Source: Gammaproteobacteria bacterium (GTDB lineage: Bacteria > Pseudomonadota > Gammaproteobacteria > SZUA-152). Taken from it: 64,000 bases of DNA. The first letter of the stretch is position 1; each line of letters opens with the position of its first letter. Shown piece after piece: positions 3,469 to 26,638 of this stretch. The notes below the pieces were generated by a model. That model had not been told where the DNA came from, ran no database searches, and saw only the letters and a list, made by a program, of their open reading frames with translations. The stretch spans positions 62,001 through 126,000 of the forward strand of contig JAKIUF010000003.1 of NCBI GenBank assembly GCA_021647705.1, read 5' to 3'. The translations under genes and the position numbers were made by a program.

Positions 3469-3843
3469 TTAAAAACCTATCGCATCAAAACGAGGGTCGC
3501 TGCCCAAAATCTGCAAGCTCACCTTGTTCGGTAGGCAGATGGATACTTCACCACCTTGGCTGAGCCAGCCGGTATGCACACAAAGCTGGTTAGGACAGGG
3601 GGAGTTTACGAAGCGTACCTGACCATCACGTACCTGGATATGACTATGGCCCAGTGGCCCTGGCACATCGAGATCCTGATTCTGAAACAGGTCGAGCCGC
3701 GCCCAGCGTTTGCCGTTCACCAGGACCACCGCCTCGGCACCGTGGCCATCGGCCTGCCAGAACATCATGTACAAACTCACCAGCAGCGTTGCCGCCAGTA
3801 ACCACACCACGGCATCGCCCCGACTGAGTTTTACCCCGTTCAT
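3469..3843 (-). CDS. NusG domain II-containing membrane-anchored protein
   Basis: 124 residues. One N-terminal helix at about residues 11-28 anchors a small periplasmic beta domain of the NusG_II type (DUF1312). The diagnostic CPNQLCVHTGW lies at 83-93 and CLPN at 103-106, so three Cys are conserved. It is not a transcription factor despite the domain name; family members cluster with ApbE and Gx transporters in flavin redox modules. ATG at 3843 overlaps the apbE stop, so apbE and this gene are coupled. The exact role is unknown. Confidence 0.85.
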   Translation of the reverse strand: MNGVKLSRGDAVVWLLAATLLVSLYMMFWQADGHGAEAVVLVNGKRWARLDLFQNQDLDVPGPLGHSHIQVRDGQVRFVNSPCPNQLCVHTGWLSQGGEVSICLPNKVSLQILGSDPRFDAIGF

Positions 3844-4904
3844 AATGCTGCGCTGATGCGAATCTCAAGGTTTGTTTGTTCGTTCTCAGCAGGCGGTATA
3901 AAATAAATACGCTTGCGGATGCCCGGCGTCAGTTGTACCCGACCATCGTCATCCACCAGCATCACGCCACTGACCCCCATGGCACGTGCCACAGGTAACC
4001 AGTCTTTTTCATCTGGGCCTGCTACAAACAGTGCGGTGGCTGCCGCATCGGCGAGATCCGCTTGCCGGGCAAATACCGTCACTGAGCTCAAACCCTGAGC
4101 CGGATAACCGCTACGCGGGTCGATGATGTGGTCATAACGTGTGCCTTGCCAGTCAAAATAACGCTCGTAATCGCCGGAAGTGAATATGCTCTCGTCACCT
4201 TCCACTTCCACTGAAGCCAGGATGCCTGCTGCCCGTGGGTGACGAATGCCTACTCGCCAGGGGCGATCACCGTGACGACCGATGGCACGTAAGTCACCAC
4301 CGGCATTTACCACCGCGTTATTAATGCCTAGCTCGCGTAGCACATCAATGGCACGGTCCACGGCGTAACCCTTGGCGAAGGCACCAAAGTCCAGTTTCAG
4401 TACCGGATTAGCGGTTTGTATCGTGAGACCCGTCAGACGGATATCTTTCATACCGGGGTGCTGGTCAAGAATAGCGCGAATGGCTTCGGCGCTGGGCGGT
4501 GGGCCTTTGGGTGGGTCGTCGCTGGCAAACCCCCACAATGCGGTGAGTTTGCCAATGGCCGGATTAAACAGGCCGTTGCTACGCTGGGATAATTCACTGC
4601 TTCGCTGAATTAATGGCAGAATAGAGGGCGGCAGGGTAAATGATTCGCCGCTGGCCAGTAGCTGATTAACTCGCCCCAGTGGCCCGGGGTGCCAGGCATG
4701 CCAGGCGTTGTGCATGTAATCAAAATCATCGGCCAGACGTGCCACAGCCTGTCGGCCCAGTGTTTCCTCTACGCCCCAAAGTTTAACGTCTACCACGGTG
4801 CCAAATACCAGCAATTGCTCATGATAAGCAACGGGTTTGTGATCACAGGCCGCTAAAAAGGCCAGGATAAATATCAGCAAAATGCGGCTAAATGTTTTGA
4901 TCAT
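3840..4904 (-). CDS. apbE: FAD:protein FMN transferase, lipoprotein
   Basis: 354 residues. A lipoprotein signal ends at LAAC with lipidated Cys20. The ApbE fold shows FGTVVDVKLWG near the N-terminus, LDFGAFAKGYAVDRAI, NAGGDLRAIG, and HIIDPRSGYPAQGLSSVTV, which bears the catalytic His/Asp region. The enzyme moves FMN from FAD to Thr/Ser in periplasmic flavoproteins such as RnfG or NqrC. The start ATG at 4904 overlaps the 3' end of the gshB remnant, and the stop overlaps the NusG-II start. No obvious FMN-binding target protein is in the window, so its substrate lies elsewhere. Confidence 0.95.
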   Translation of the reverse strand: MIKTFSRILLIFILAFLAACDHKPVAYHEQLLVFGTVVDVKLWGVEETLGRQAVARLADDFDYMHNAWHAWHPGPLGRVNQLLASGESFTLPPSILPLIQRSSELSQRSNGLFNPAIGKLTALWGFASDDPPKGPPPSAEAIRAILDQHPGMKDIRLTGLTIQTANPVLKLDFGAFAKGYAVDRAIDVLRELGINNAVVNAGGDLRAIGRHGDRPWRVGIRHPRAAGILASVEVEGDESIFTSGDYERYFDWQGTRYDHIIDPRSGYPAQGLSSVTVFARQADLADAAATALFVAGPDEKDWLPVARAMGVSGVMLVDDDGRVQLTPGIRKRIYFIPPAENEQTNLEIRISAAL

Positions 4905-5296
4905 GCGTTTAATTTATGCTCAATGATATCCATTAGCTGGCCGCGGATATCCAGCCCGTAAAGTGTGTCCAGCTCACGAATACCGGTGGGGCTGGTGACG
5001 TTTACCTCGGTGAGAAAGTCACCGATGACATCCAGTGGTTTAATGATGATGTCGTTGTGTTCGGCCAACGGCTGATCCTGTGGTTCGTCCAGGCTGAACC
5101 CGTCGTTATTGTTGTCGCGCACGGCCAGCTCCCGCAAACGGGCACAGGCTTGCCCGTTATGCAGATACAGATCATCCATTTCCAGATAGTGTGATGCCCA
5201 GCCACGCGCCTGTGCCGCCAGCGCCATAGCAAGGCTGCTGTCTTTTTGTGGTTTGATGGTGGCAATGGGGTCCATCAACAAAGCGAGCGTTGTCAT
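4901..5296 (-). pseudogene. gshB: internally deleted glutathione synthetase remnant (in-frame, 131 residues)
   Basis: The first ~75 residues match the GshB N-terminus (LALLMDPIATIKPQKDSSLA, HYLEMDDLYLHNGQACAR, DQPLAEHN). The frame then jumps to DIIIKPLD, which in full-length GshB lies about 70 residues later, and at once to VIGDFLTEVNVTSPTGIREL, the C-terminal tail about 105 residues further on. Length is 131 against about 315 in the family. The ATP-grasp core (Gly-rich loop, Mg ligands) is missing, so synthetase activity is not expected. The frame is open with intact start and stop, and it overlaps apbE by 4 bases. It sits exactly where full gshB is found in related genomes. It could be a decayed gene with a second gshB elsewhere, or an assembly error. 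Confidence 0.85.
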
Positions 5297-6636: not shown

Positions 6637-7176
6637 GTGGATAACAAAATACATCCCTTTGATCTCCTGCAAACGCTGGAGGAACAAAGCAAAAATAATG
6701 CAAAGGGTTTACCGCAGCAAATTGAAACCCACACCCTATGGAGTGGCATCGGTTTTCGTCTTGGTGATATTGAGATGGTTGCACCACTTACCCAGGTTAA
6801 CGAGATTTTGCATTTTCCAAACCTGACATTGGTGCCAGGTACTTTGCCGTGGATAAAGGGGCTCGCTAACATTCGCGGCACGTTGTTGCCAATTGTGGAT
6901 TTACAAAATTATCTGGGACAGCCTGCTATTCATTTGCAGCAACAGACACGTATTCTGGTCATTAACCAGGGTGAGTTGATTGTAGGGTTGCTGGTTGATG
7001 AAGTCGTTGGTCTGCGCCATTTTGATCCGGAAGACCGGATAACGCGTATCCGAAAAATGAACCCGGCAATGAAAATACATATTCGTGGCGCATTCAAACA
7101 AAATGAAAAAATCTGGCATTTGTTTGATATGTCCACACTGATTGAAGATCCACAATTTTATAAAGTCGCGGTTTAA
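6637..7176 (+). CDS. pilI: chemotaxis coupling protein PilI (CheW-like)
   Basis: 179 residues with one CheW domain from about residue 35 to 170. SGIGFRLGDIEMVAPLTQVN, PGTLPWIKGLANIRGTLLPI and VDLQNYLG are typical of PilI, which links the PilJ receptor to ChpA. The start is GTG at 6637 (GTG GAT AAC AAA), 28 bases after the pilH stop, with a weak ribosome binding site. The C-terminus (WHLFDMSTLIEDPQFYKVAV) matches PilI ends. Cytoplasmic, in polar arrays. Confidence 0.92.
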   Translation: MDNKIHPFDLLQTLEEQSKNNAKGLPQQIETHTLWSGIGFRLGDIEMVAPLTQVNEILHFPNLTLVPGTLPWIKGLANIRGTLLPIVDLQNYLGQPAIHLQQQTRILVINQGELIVGLLVDEVVGLRHFDPEDRITRIRKMNPAMKIHIRGAFKQNEKIWHLFDMSTLIEDPQFYKVAV

Positions 7177-7273
7177 CAACAAACACGTAACAATAAATTA
7201 AAAATTACACTACCTATAACACACACAGCCTCATACTGAACGCCAAAAATTATGGGGCCAGGAGCCGAGCACG

Positions 7274-9295
7274 ATGAAAACAGCATCTGATTCAAAATTT
7301 TCCGCAGACACAGGCTTACTGCTATTGGGTGGGACGCTCCTGGTCCTGTTGGCATTGGCCGCGGCAACATTCTTTTATGTTGGGACACAAACTAATTACG
7401 ATAAAGAATACATCAGTTTGGCGGGTGAGCAGCGTGTTCTCTCTCAAAGTATTGTGAAAAATGCTGTGGAATCATCCAGTGCCACGGTATCGGCATTTCG
7501 GCTTTTAAAGCAGGCCCGTAATCAGTTTGAAAATAATCTCAACCTGTTGCGTGAGGGGAATCCTGAAACCGGCTTACCACCTTCTCCAGCAACAGCGCAG
7601 GACAATTTGGCGGCAGTCGAAGCGCTCTGGAAAGTTTTTGGCAAAAATGCTGACACTGTTCTACGTGCCGAAGGCACTATCCGCATGTTGAGCGAATTTG
7701 TTGGAGCGGTGAATGAAACCATGCCGAACTTGTTGGCGCTTTCTGACGAAGTGGTTAGCTTGATGATTGAAACCGGTGCGAACTCCAGTCAGGTTTATAT
7801 CGCCAGCCGCCAGCTTATGCTGGTGCCACGTATTTCAGTTAATGCAAACAAAGTGCTGGCAGGTGGTGCTGGTTCCTCTGCGGCAGCCGAGCGTTTCGGC
7901 CGTGACGCGGCATTGTTTGGCCGAGTGCTGGACGGCATGTTAAAAGGTAATCGTAAAATGAACATACGCCGGGTGTCTGACCCGGATGCGCGTGAGAAAT
8001 TGAAAGAGGTCGCGGAGCAATTTGAAACCGTTCGTGAATTGGTTGGCCGTATTCTTGAACAAACTCCGGCACTGTTTGAAGCGCAAAAAGCATCAAGCGA
8101 TATGGCGACAAAAAGTGAAGCCTTGCTCAACGCGACCACGGAATTACGCAACACCTATACCCGGTTAGGCAATGAACGCTTTGTAAGCAATACGACAGGT
8201 AATCTGTTGAGTGCGGCTGCGTTGTTCATTTTAATCTGGCTGGGCGTTAAAATACAAACAGACACCCGCAAGCGTTTGACGATAACGGCACAACAAAACA
8301 AACAAAATCAGGACGCGATCATGCGACTCCTGGATGAAATTGGCGATCTCGCCAATGGTGATCTCACAACCTCTGCCACTGTGACAGAAGACATCACCGG
8401 CGCTATTGCGGATGCTATCAATTACACCATTGACCAGCTGCGTCGATTGGTATCGACCATTAATGAAACGACGGTGCAGGTATCGTCCGCTGCACAGGAA
8501 ACGCAGGCCACGGCCATGCACCTTGCCGAAGCCAGTGACCATCAGGCGGAACAGATAACTGCTGCGTCTGCTGCTATTAATGAGATGGCCATTTCCATCG
8601 ACACGGTATCCGGTAATGCCACTGAATCTTCTGAAGTGGCAACACGTTCCGTGGATATTGCGAAAAAAGGTGCTGCTGCTGTACAGGACACCATTCGGGG
8701 TATGGACACGATTCGTGAACAAATTCAGGAAACCTCAAAACGTATCAAACGCCTGGGTGAAAGCTCGCAGGAAATTGGTGATATGGTCGAGCTGATCAAC
8801 GATATTGCCGACCAAACCAACATCCTCGCGTTGAATGCGGCTATACAGGCTGCGATGGCCGGTGAGTCGGGTCGTGGTTTTGCGGTGGTTGCCGATGAAG
8901 TGCAACGACTTGCTGAAAAATCCACTGATGCGACGCGACAGATCGAAGCCTTGGTGAAAACCATCCAGTCCGATACCAACGAAGCGGTTGCCTCCATGGA
9001 ACAATCCACTACGCAGGTGGTGGAAGGGGCCAAACTTGCACTCAATGCGGGTGACTCACTGGCAGAAATTGAAGGGGTATCGACACATCTGGCCGACCTG
9101 ACTACATCCATTTCAGATTCTGCACAGCAACAGGCCACGGCTGCTTCCAGTATTTCGGAAAGTATGAATGTCATCCAGGAAGTCACTACGCAGACATCGG
9201 CGGGTACCAATGAAACATCGGCATCCATCGGTAATCTGGCAGACTTATCGAACGAGCTACGCAAATCGGTAGCTGGCTTCAAATTGCCGGATTGA
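7274..9295 (+). CDS. pilJ: twitching motility methyl-accepting chemoreceptor PilJ
   Basis: 673 residues. TM1 is at about 12-37 and TM2 at about 305-323, enclosing a periplasmic PilJ-type sensor ([15 protein letters not shown], then [10 protein letters not shown]). A HAMP and poly-helical region follows, then the signalling hairpin. The tip reads [20 protein letters not shown], with the Gln/Met variants seen in PilJ in place of the usual AAIEAARAGE. ATG at 7274 with AGGAG 9 bases upstream. PilJ senses pilus state and signals through PilI to ChpA; methylation sites would be set by PilK and ChpB encoded downstream. Confidence 0.95.
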
Positions 9296-21943: not shown

Positions 21944-22314
21944 CGGGCTTCCTCTCCAGAAATCAGCTGATGTGTTAGGTTTAATAACGGTACTTTTTTA
22001 CATGCCACGATGCCTTTCCTCATATCTCCCTTATGCATGGAACGGGGCTCCGAAAAAACTAAATTATAATACACTGATTTAGAACTGCTCCCCAATTGAA
22101 GCCACGAATGGGGGAATTAACCAAGACAATGAAAAAATGCGTTATATGCTCGTAGTGATTGAGATTTAGGCGCTCATTGCACCCCTCCCTTCATTCCATG
22201 GCGGCGTTGAAATTCCCCACAATAGACTAGCAATTATTCGTCATTTCGCTTCGCCTAAAAGCACCTACTTTTGATGCCGTGAAATGAATATGACGCACAC
22301 TGAACACCTAAATC
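21944..22314. other. 371-base intergenic region with inverted TTGAGATTTAGG ends
   Basis: No gene was found. It should hold the promoter of the permease (AAATTATAATACA near 22062-22074 is AT-rich and -10-like on either strand). TTGAGATTTAGGCG near 22163 and its inverse CACCTAAATCTCAA near 22304 form a 14-base inverted pair about 130 bases apart. The right arm runs into the trmB stop codon. A third match, TTGAGATTTAGGG, lies near 43111. Confidence 0.4.
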
Positions 22315-23061
22315 TCAAATGTTACGGGTGTTTCGCTCAAAGAGTAAATCCCAGACACCATGGCCGAGGCGGTGGCCGCGTTGTTCAAATTTGGTCAGTG
22401 GACGCCAATCCGGGCGGGGTGAATATTCGCCGATATTTGCGCAATTTTGATAATCGGGTGCAGCTTCAAGCACGCTCATCATCTGTCGGGCATAGTGTTG
22501 CCAGTCAGTGGCCAGATGAAATATGCCACCGGGCCGGAGTTTTGTTGCGATGAGTGCTGCGAACTCTGGGCTAACAATGCGCCGTTTGTGGTGGCGTCGT
22601 TTATGCCAGGGGTCGGGGAAAAACAGTTGCACCCGGTCGAGGCAGGCATTGGGCAGGCGGTGTCTGAGAATTTGCACAGCGTCGTCGCAGAGCACCCGGA
22701 CATTGTGCAGTTTGTGCTCCTCCAGCAAACGCAACAGATTACCTACGCCGGGGCGGTGTACTTCAATACCGAGATAATCGTGATCCGGCAGGGTGGCGGC
22801 CATTTTCACCAGCGAACTTCCGTTGCCAAAGCCGATCTCCAATACTGTTTGTCGGTTGGAGCCGGGCTCCCGGTTGAAACAGTCAGCCAGCATCAGTATG
22901 GGTTCATTACGGGCAATGCGTTTGGGCTCCAGAATGTCGGGCCCGGCACTGTCGATGCCATAGCGTGACCACAGTGCATCAAGAGCGTATTGCTGGCCGG
23001 AGGTCAGACGACCTTCGCGACGTACAAAACTGCGGATGGGGCGATGTGTGTCTTCAGACAT
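22315..23061 (-). CDS. trmB: tRNA (guanine-N7-)-methyltransferase
   Basis: 248 residues from ATG at 23061; a TTG at 23094 would add 11 residues but has no homology support. RSFVRREGRLTSGQQYALD is the classical TrmB start. VLEIGFGNGSSLVKMA is the SAM-binding motif and LFFPDPWHKRRHHKRRIV the catalytic/tRNA-binding signature. It makes m7G46 in tRNA. The stop codon lies inside a short repeat arm (TTGAGATTTAGG) shared with the intergenic region. Downstream of thiG on the same strand but separated by a hairpin array. Confidence 0.96.
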   Translation of the reverse strand: MSEDTHRPIRSFVRREGRLTSGQQYALDALWSRYGIDSAGPDILEPKRIARNEPILMLADCFNREPGSNRQTVLEIGFGNGSSLVKMAATLPDHDYLGIEVHRPGVGNLLRLLEEHKLHNVRVLCDDAVQILRHRLPNACLDRVQLFFPDPWHKRRHHKRRIVSPEFAALIATKLRPGGIFHLATDWQHYARQMMSVLEAAPDYQNCANIGEYSPRPDWRPLTKFEQRGHRLGHGVWDLLFERNTRNI

Positions 23062-25739: not shown

Positions 25740-26507
25740 TCATCTGCCCCATACACCTGCTTTCACTTCTACATCCAGGTTACGTTTAATAAGATACACA
25801 ATAGGTTCTCTGTCAGCTTCCAGTACAACATCCATACGCATGCTGAGAATGCTCATGCTATTTTTGTTAGCCATGCTGTTAATACGAGCAGCATTATCAA
25901 TAAGGCCCGATTGATAATAAATCCGTCCACCGCGTTTAAGATAATTGTTCACCTCGGCGAAAAAACGCTCATGCAGTTTCCAGAGTCCTTGGGTTGCCTC
26001 GTTGTAGGGATAATCAATATTAAACAGAATGACATCAAATTTTTCATCCTTGGTTATTGGCGAAAATAAATCGCCTTGTCGGACATCGATAATATTATCT
26101 GCCCCATTTCTTTGCGCATTCAATCGGGCTATTTTAACGGCTGCTGGGTTGATGTCTGTGGCCACAACCAGACTGGCTTTGTCAGCAGCAAAAACTGCCT
26201 GTACGCCGGAGCCGGTGCCTATATCCAACACAGTTTCGCCATCAAAAATCTTCCAGTGAGTCAGCAAATACAGACTTTGTACCGAAGGCAAAACAACATC
26301 ATCGACGGCTAAAAACTCCCGGCCATCTACTGTAGCCATAGTATGCAAAGGGAATTCCTTCGATGGCGCGTGATAAACCAGTTGATATTTTCCTGGATGT
26401 GGAACCGTCATAAATGGCTGGTCAATATGTGTTGTATGCATGCAGCTGACGATAAAGGCCGTAGCAAACAACAACACGCCTATTCTGATAAAAACTGGGT
26501 GCGTCAT
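25740..26507 (-). CDS. predicted lipoprotein SAM-dependent methyltransferase
   Basis: 255 residues from ATG at 26507, with AGGAT 6 bases upstream. An N-terminal hydrophobic stretch ends IVSC with Cys22 in a plausible lipobox. A class I methyltransferase fold follows: VLDIGTGSGVQA at about 93-104, ATDINPAAVKIARLNAQRNG, and FNIDYPYNEAT in the place of the NPPY motif of PrmC/RsmC/TrmN6-type enzymes. The fold is intact, but the export signal would place it outside the cytoplasm, where SAM is not known to be available. Either the signal is only an inner-face anchor or the enzyme is repurposed. Substrate unknown. Convergent with the tRNA-Gly gene. Confidence 0.75.
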   Translation of the reverse strand: MTHPVFIRIGVLLFATAFIVSCMHTTHIDQPFMTVPHPGKYQLVYHAPSKEFPLHTMATVDGREFLAVDDVVLPSVQSLYLLTHWKIFDGETVLDIGTGSGVQAVFAADKASLVVATDINPAAVKIARLNAQRNGADNIIDVRQGDLFSPITKDEKFDVILFNIDYPYNEATQGLWKLHERFFAEVNNYLKRGGRIYYQSGLIDNAARINSMANKNSMSILSMRMDVVLEADREPIVYLIKRNLDVEVKAGVWGR

Positions 26508-26638
26508 TTGTAGATCCTGATTATAGTGTGGAGTGGGTTTAACTGAATGAGGTGCTATAGTAGCAGCACGTGGCGGGTAGAGTGCCACGCAGAATATTGT
26601 AGTACACCAGACAACCTATTTTCATACAGGATTTTTTC

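Follow-up and report, generated by a model that had tools for sequence, protein, structure and literature searches.

Pseudogenes that arise by deletion between short direct repeats are a known kind in bacteria, and the truncated glutathione synthetase gene (gshB) described here resembles them in that each of its deletion junctions keeps one copy of a repeat and that apparently neutral substitution followed. It differs from them in no way of kind; the only oddity is that the same gene was hit in three genomes of one genus. On the metabolic side, the closest described cases are bacteria that possess gshA without gshB and use gamma-glutamylcysteine as their major thiol, among them Leuconostoc and Lb. 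reuteri; the excerpted account presents Leuconostoc as devoid of both gshB and gshF, with gamma-glutamylcysteine as the major thiol and with gpo and gshR kept (PMC3462692). Haloarchaea are likewise described, in an excerpt, as using gamma-glutamylcysteine as a thiol (PMC7278568), and a gshB deletion mutant of P. aeruginosa is characterized, again in an excerpt, as far more sensitive to paraquat, with a tolerance toward N-ethylmaleimide equal to that of its parent (PMC6191110). The gammaproteobacterium studied here, whose own assembly (4.44 Mb in 82 contigs, 96% complete) we denote G000, is similar to Leuconostoc, Lb. reuteri and the haloarchaea in that it possesses a full-length gshA, that no gshB or gshF was found in it, and that it has kept a homologue of glutathione reductase. 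It differs from Leuconostoc and Lb. reuteri in that a remnant of gshB is retained in place.

The remnant lies at positions 4901-5296 on the minus strand of the window, the whole stretch of 64,000 nucleotides that was analysed. It is an open frame of 131 codons, compared with 315 codons in intact relatives; it begins with ATG, and its stop overlaps the start of its intact downstream neighbour apbE (3840-4904, minus strand, 354 aa) by the four bases ATGA (4901-4904, minus strand). Pfam and TIGR01380 matches identify the frame as gshB and at the same time reveal how much of it is gone. The Pfam domain GSH-S_N is matched over positions 3-83 of 119 (E 4.2e-21), the remainder being deleted, and of GSH-S_ATP solely positions 142-173 of 175 are present, so that a complete ATP-grasp domain is lacking. 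The NCBIfam models TIGR01380 and NF003573 score the remnant at 112.4 and 116.5 bits, far below their cut-offs of 299.05 and 272, respectively, and the genome-wide scan with TIGR01380 touched the remnant only at model positions 3-84 and 262-311 of 312. We mapped the losses against the intact 315-codon gshB of a genome of the same genus, G007, whose product aligns with E. coli GshB (PDB 1gsa) from residue 2 to 313 in both proteins, gapless in the printed alignment. Measured in this way, deletion 1 comprises residues 80-153 (74 codons, 222 bp) and deletion 2 took out 110 codons (330 bp) from a stretch bounded approximately by residues 163 and 274. While the N-terminal 79, the middle 8-10 and the C-terminal approximately 42 residues align securely with GshB (TIGR01380; 1gsa), 184 of the 315 codons (552 bp) are missing, and nearly all of the essential ATP-grasp domain is lost with them. 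A preceding sequence-only reading had proposed just such an in-frame remnant, devoid of the ATP-grasp core, with deletions of about 70 and 105 residues on either side of the piece DIIIKPLD and with start, stop and apbE overlap intact; each of these points was borne out, and its estimates of the deletion sizes were close to those measured. Taken with the evidence on the junctions and on the kept codons given below, it is very probable that 4901-5296 is a gshB pseudogene which originated from short-repeat deletions and is now decaying.

To inspect the junctions, we aligned the DNA of the three broken gshB genes with that of four intact ones and then checked the bases one by one. At the junction of deletion 1 (5059-5067, minus strand) a single copy of the 9-bp direct repeat TGGCCGAAC remains, and at that of deletion 2 (5029-5035, minus strand) a single copy of the 7-bp direct repeat CTGGATG. 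In intact genes, the same repeats flank the lost stretches at both ends: TGGCCGAAC does so in G003, the left copy in G007 having one mismatch, and CTGGATG does so in G007, G002 and G008, with G003 carrying CTGGA only. Replication slippage, or some other exchange between short repeats, probably made both deletions; slippage between the copies of TGGCCGAAC would have removed residues 80-153, and slippage between those of CTGGATG about residues 164-273. In G003, whose gene is intact, no exact direct repeat is longer than 10 bp, and the two that reach this length are located at the sites of G000 deletion 1 and of a deletion in a further relative, G004. This tie between the longest repeats and the junctions rests on G003, because the longest direct repeats differ in the other intact genes: G007 has five of 9 bp, which include the one at the G004 deletion and lack the one at G000 deletion 1, and the longest in G002 and G008 are others, found at neither of these two junctions. 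Deletion assisted by a hairpin was considered and set aside, as a segment of the intact G003 gene, folded as DNA, yielded a z value of -1.34, with 16 of 200 shuffles folding equally well.

That both deletions keep the reading frame is no sign of selection in itself, since the distance between short direct repeats in gshB is usually divisible by three. When identical words of 6-8 bp separated by 30 bp or more were paired in each of the four intact genes, 63-86% of the pairs proved to be in codon phase, and for 9-bp words the counts are 5 of 5, 9 of 9, 6 of 9 and 3 of 4, one longer repeat scoring as several words; an in-frame outcome is therefore what slippage within gshB is likely to give. In-frame deletions could also have been favoured if frameshifts in gshB were to lower the translation of the overlapping apbE, an explanation, concerning the frame only, that we regard as rather doubtful. 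The ATGA overlap fits it, all five deletions across the three broken genomes are in frame, and apbE is still constrained in G000, with 2 amino-acid-changing (N) and 15 silent (S) changes unique to this genome; it is nevertheless superfluous, because the codon-phase repeats already make five in-frame deletions out of five unsurprising. A weeding out of frameshifts through the apbE overlap could possibly add to the effect and is compatible with the pseudogene reading. The remnant thus provides a clean case in which the retention of the frame by both deletions comes from codon-phase repeats and not from selection, which is a trap when such remnants are interpreted.

The frame has stayed open after the deletions, and the kept codons have gathered lineage-specific changes at a neutral ratio. 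In comparison with four intact relatives, the kept codons of G000 carry 13 N and 5 S unique changes, that is 72% N, at a neutral expectation of 67-73%; purifying selection on the remainder is hence not apparent, the numbers being small. The count of 13 N holds under every way of counting, with codon 308 contributing two, and the silent count varies: it is 3 if agreement with G004 is also required, 7 with G007, G003, G004 and G002 as the comparison set, and 8 in an automatic alignment. Two of the replacements, W66G and C289G, affect residues that are identical in the other eight compared sequences and in E. coli; G302R was rejected as a further change at an invariant site, given that the relatives vary at position 302. 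Several controls were compared. Pooled over 21 neighbouring genes of G000, the changes number 163 N and 382 S (Fisher p 0.002 against the matched remnant count of 13:7); the whole gshB genes of G007 and G003 together give 12 N and 34 S (p 0.001), and the same kept codons in these two genomes 5 N and 10 S (p 0.04), to which intact G003 contributes 4 N and 2 S and G007 1 N and 8 S when viewed singly. Less favourable to decay are the value of G003 and those of two of the 21 neighbours, of which one, apparently intact, reaches an equally high ratio with 14 N and 5 S, and another shows 9 N and 10 S. Together, the kept codons look as if they decay freely by near-neutral substitution.

The neighbour with 14 N and 5 S occupies 25743-26615 of the window (minus strand; 87743-88615 of the contig) and is not visibly broken. 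Its N:S ratios are also high in G003 and G004, and its predicted product resembles a methyltransferase with a lipoprotein-like start.

The substitutions bear on two further proposals of the sequence-only reading. A very recent event is not supported, given that about 18 substitutions have accumulated at a neutral ratio; the deletions should nonetheless be younger than the split from the intact G007. It had also been suggested that the fragment might have acquired a new role. In that case it would be a small gene whose product is made and selected, perhaps regulating another protein or acting as its binding partner. The intact start, stop, apbE overlap and reading frame would suit such a gene. 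We consider it highly improbable, however, as the ratio of 13 N to 5 S is near neutral and betrays no purifying selection, residues that the other compared sequences all share are lost, and the same 131-codon short form is absent from every one of the family's 23 other genomes. Nor does the open frame tell against decay, because the probability that 18 neutral changes produce no stop is about 0.57-0.60, so that at this age an open frame is expected by chance. As a pseudogene product, the fragment would be inactive, its ATP-grasp domain being gone. In the literature that we searched, chiefly titles and the openings of abstracts, no report of a gshB remnant of this kind was found.

An artefact of assembly or amplification, in which the true genome has gshB in full length and two pieces of it were passed over in the contig at short repeats, had likewise been raised, and there are circumstances that would favour it: both junctions are at short repeats, the genomes used for comparison are for the most part drafts split into many contigs, and one of the deletions found in G006, another member of the genus, is near a contig end. 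Even so, the repeats at the junctions, 7-10 bp long, are shorter than the word lengths used by assemblers; the kept part bears near-neutral substitutions of its own, which would be unexpected of an artefact; and different gshB deletions are present in two other assemblies, the contig name in G004 giving a coverage of 56. We also surveyed gaps in the open frames of 60 codons or more that either strand of G000 contig C21 contains (many of which are not genes), compared at 60% identity or more with 433 frames from G002, 307 from G003, 152 from G007 and 152 from G004. In this survey, which is blind to frames broken by frameshifts, gshB was the only case of a loss of at least 10 residues on the side of G000. 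Gaps of 10-18 residues on the side of the relatives occurred in two proteins, and relative to G010, a more distant genome (67 frames), one 2084-residue protein of G000 is short of 23 and 35 residues and the one after it of 10. With this evidence, an artefact appears very unlikely, and we retain the reading of a genuine pseudogene.

A full-length match to gshB is present in 21 of 24 genomes of the family, G000 included in the 24 (22 of 24 are over the cut-off if the two pieces of G004 are summed). The three genomes without it, G000, G004 and G006, all belong to this one genus of 12 genomes, and the in-frame deletions in the two others differ from those of G000. The gshB of G004 has lost 47 codons; that of G006 lacks 134 codons, where no clear repeat marks the junction, and a further 27 codons at a GLDI-coding repeat near the contig end. 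In their kept codons, G004 shows 6 N and 10 S (p 0.52) and G006 14 N and 18 S (p 0.14), ratios which alone do not show decay. G004 also carries a 42-bp tandem duplication across the gshB stop and the apbE start (locus L046, contig C102 near 3860-3980), so that the start region of apbE is present twice.

In a tree built from 7874 codons, G004 groups with the intact G003 at a support of 100/100, and each of the three arrangements tested for a clade of G000 and G004 is rejected. Consequently, unless gshB has passed from one lineage to another, it has been lost on at least two separate occasions, and the G004 deletion arose independently of those in G000. The three broken lineages do not form a clade in a tree of 3357 nt that includes G006; a single ancestral loss shared by all three is neither favoured nor rejected by these data (AU p 0.146). 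Because gshB deletions have arisen independently at least twice in the genus, glutathione synthetase seems to be dispensable in some of its lineages. The pseudogene itself is ordinary gene decay in kind, and it is its repeated loss in one genus that is mildly unusual.

As the sequence-only reading had advised, we looked for a second gshB or a gshF elsewhere in the genome. None was found, although a second gshB could be missing from an assembly that is 96% complete: within it, TIGR01380 matches the two pieces of the remnant only, and the model for GshF hits nothing but the frame of gshA. At E values up to 10, PF02955 matches in G000 nothing other than the remnant and, weakly, a 1078-codon frame that we take to be a carbamoyl-phosphate synthase. 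A replacement ligase was sought with the RimK-type ATP-grasp model PF08443 in seven genomes of the genus, and nothing specific to G000 emerged; its sole match there was discarded as a candidate, since a counterpart of similar span is present in six of the six other genomes.

The gshA gene of G000 shows 5 N and 10 S. Its constraint is modest, because the gshA of G007 shows 9 N and 5 S, and any sign that gshA is specially kept in G000 is weakened by this free change in G007. The glutathione reductase homologue of G000 (gor) is intact, scores above the curated cut-off and shows 4 N and 14 S. Across the genus, PF04262 (gshA) was found in 9 of 12 genomes, with no match in G003, G004 and G006. A linked loss of gshA in G004 and G006 was considered and dropped as uninformative, the contig that carries the left side of the gshA neighbourhood ending, among the matches listed, before the point where gshA would start. 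For G003, which is 73% complete, a search with the gshA neighbourhood matched dispersed repeats only. Glutathione S-transferases were likewise dropped as evidence of glutathione use, the best GST_N_3 match resembling what is presumably SspA.

Two dispersed repeats were seen alongside, next to each other on G000 contig C6 (locus L087). One, at 6918-7081, is an element of about 160 bp with the inverted ends TATACCCGTAGCG...CGCTACGGGTATA; among the matches listed it has many in G002, G003, G004, G006 and G007, there are two on G000 contig C21, and the window has one weak copy at about 22144-22329. It looks like a small mobile element. The other, at 7154-7436, is a repeat of about 280 bp that is present in many places in the relatives, among the matches listed; contig C21 has four pieces of it, none of them within the window.

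Beyond the family, we surveyed 370 gammaproteobacterial genomes with a completeness of 90% or higher; a gshB match of some kind is present in 350, and in 330 it exceeds the cut-off. We searched for gshA in 28 of the 39 others below the gshB cut-off, namely every one of the 20 that lack a match plus, chosen by eye, the 8 with the weakest matches, and found it in 4 of these 28. As far as incomplete genomes allow such a conclusion, other members of the Gammaproteobacteria thus also seem to have gshA without gshB.

For the cell to which the remnant belongs, the gene content suggests that it probably lives on gamma-glutamylcysteine supplied by its intact GshA, on imported glutathione, or on both. 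It is conceivable, if rather speculative, that the genus as a whole is replacing glutathione by gamma-glutamylcysteine as its main thiol, with GshB being lost repeatedly and independently and GshA and the glutathione reductase homologue being kept. If this were true, such a thiol switch could be studied by comparing sister species that have GshB with those that lack it. Apart from that, the repeated breakage of gshB in the genus, together with the gshA kept in G000, provides close pairs in which gamma-glutamylcysteine could be tested as a stand-in for glutathione in the Gammaproteobacteria.
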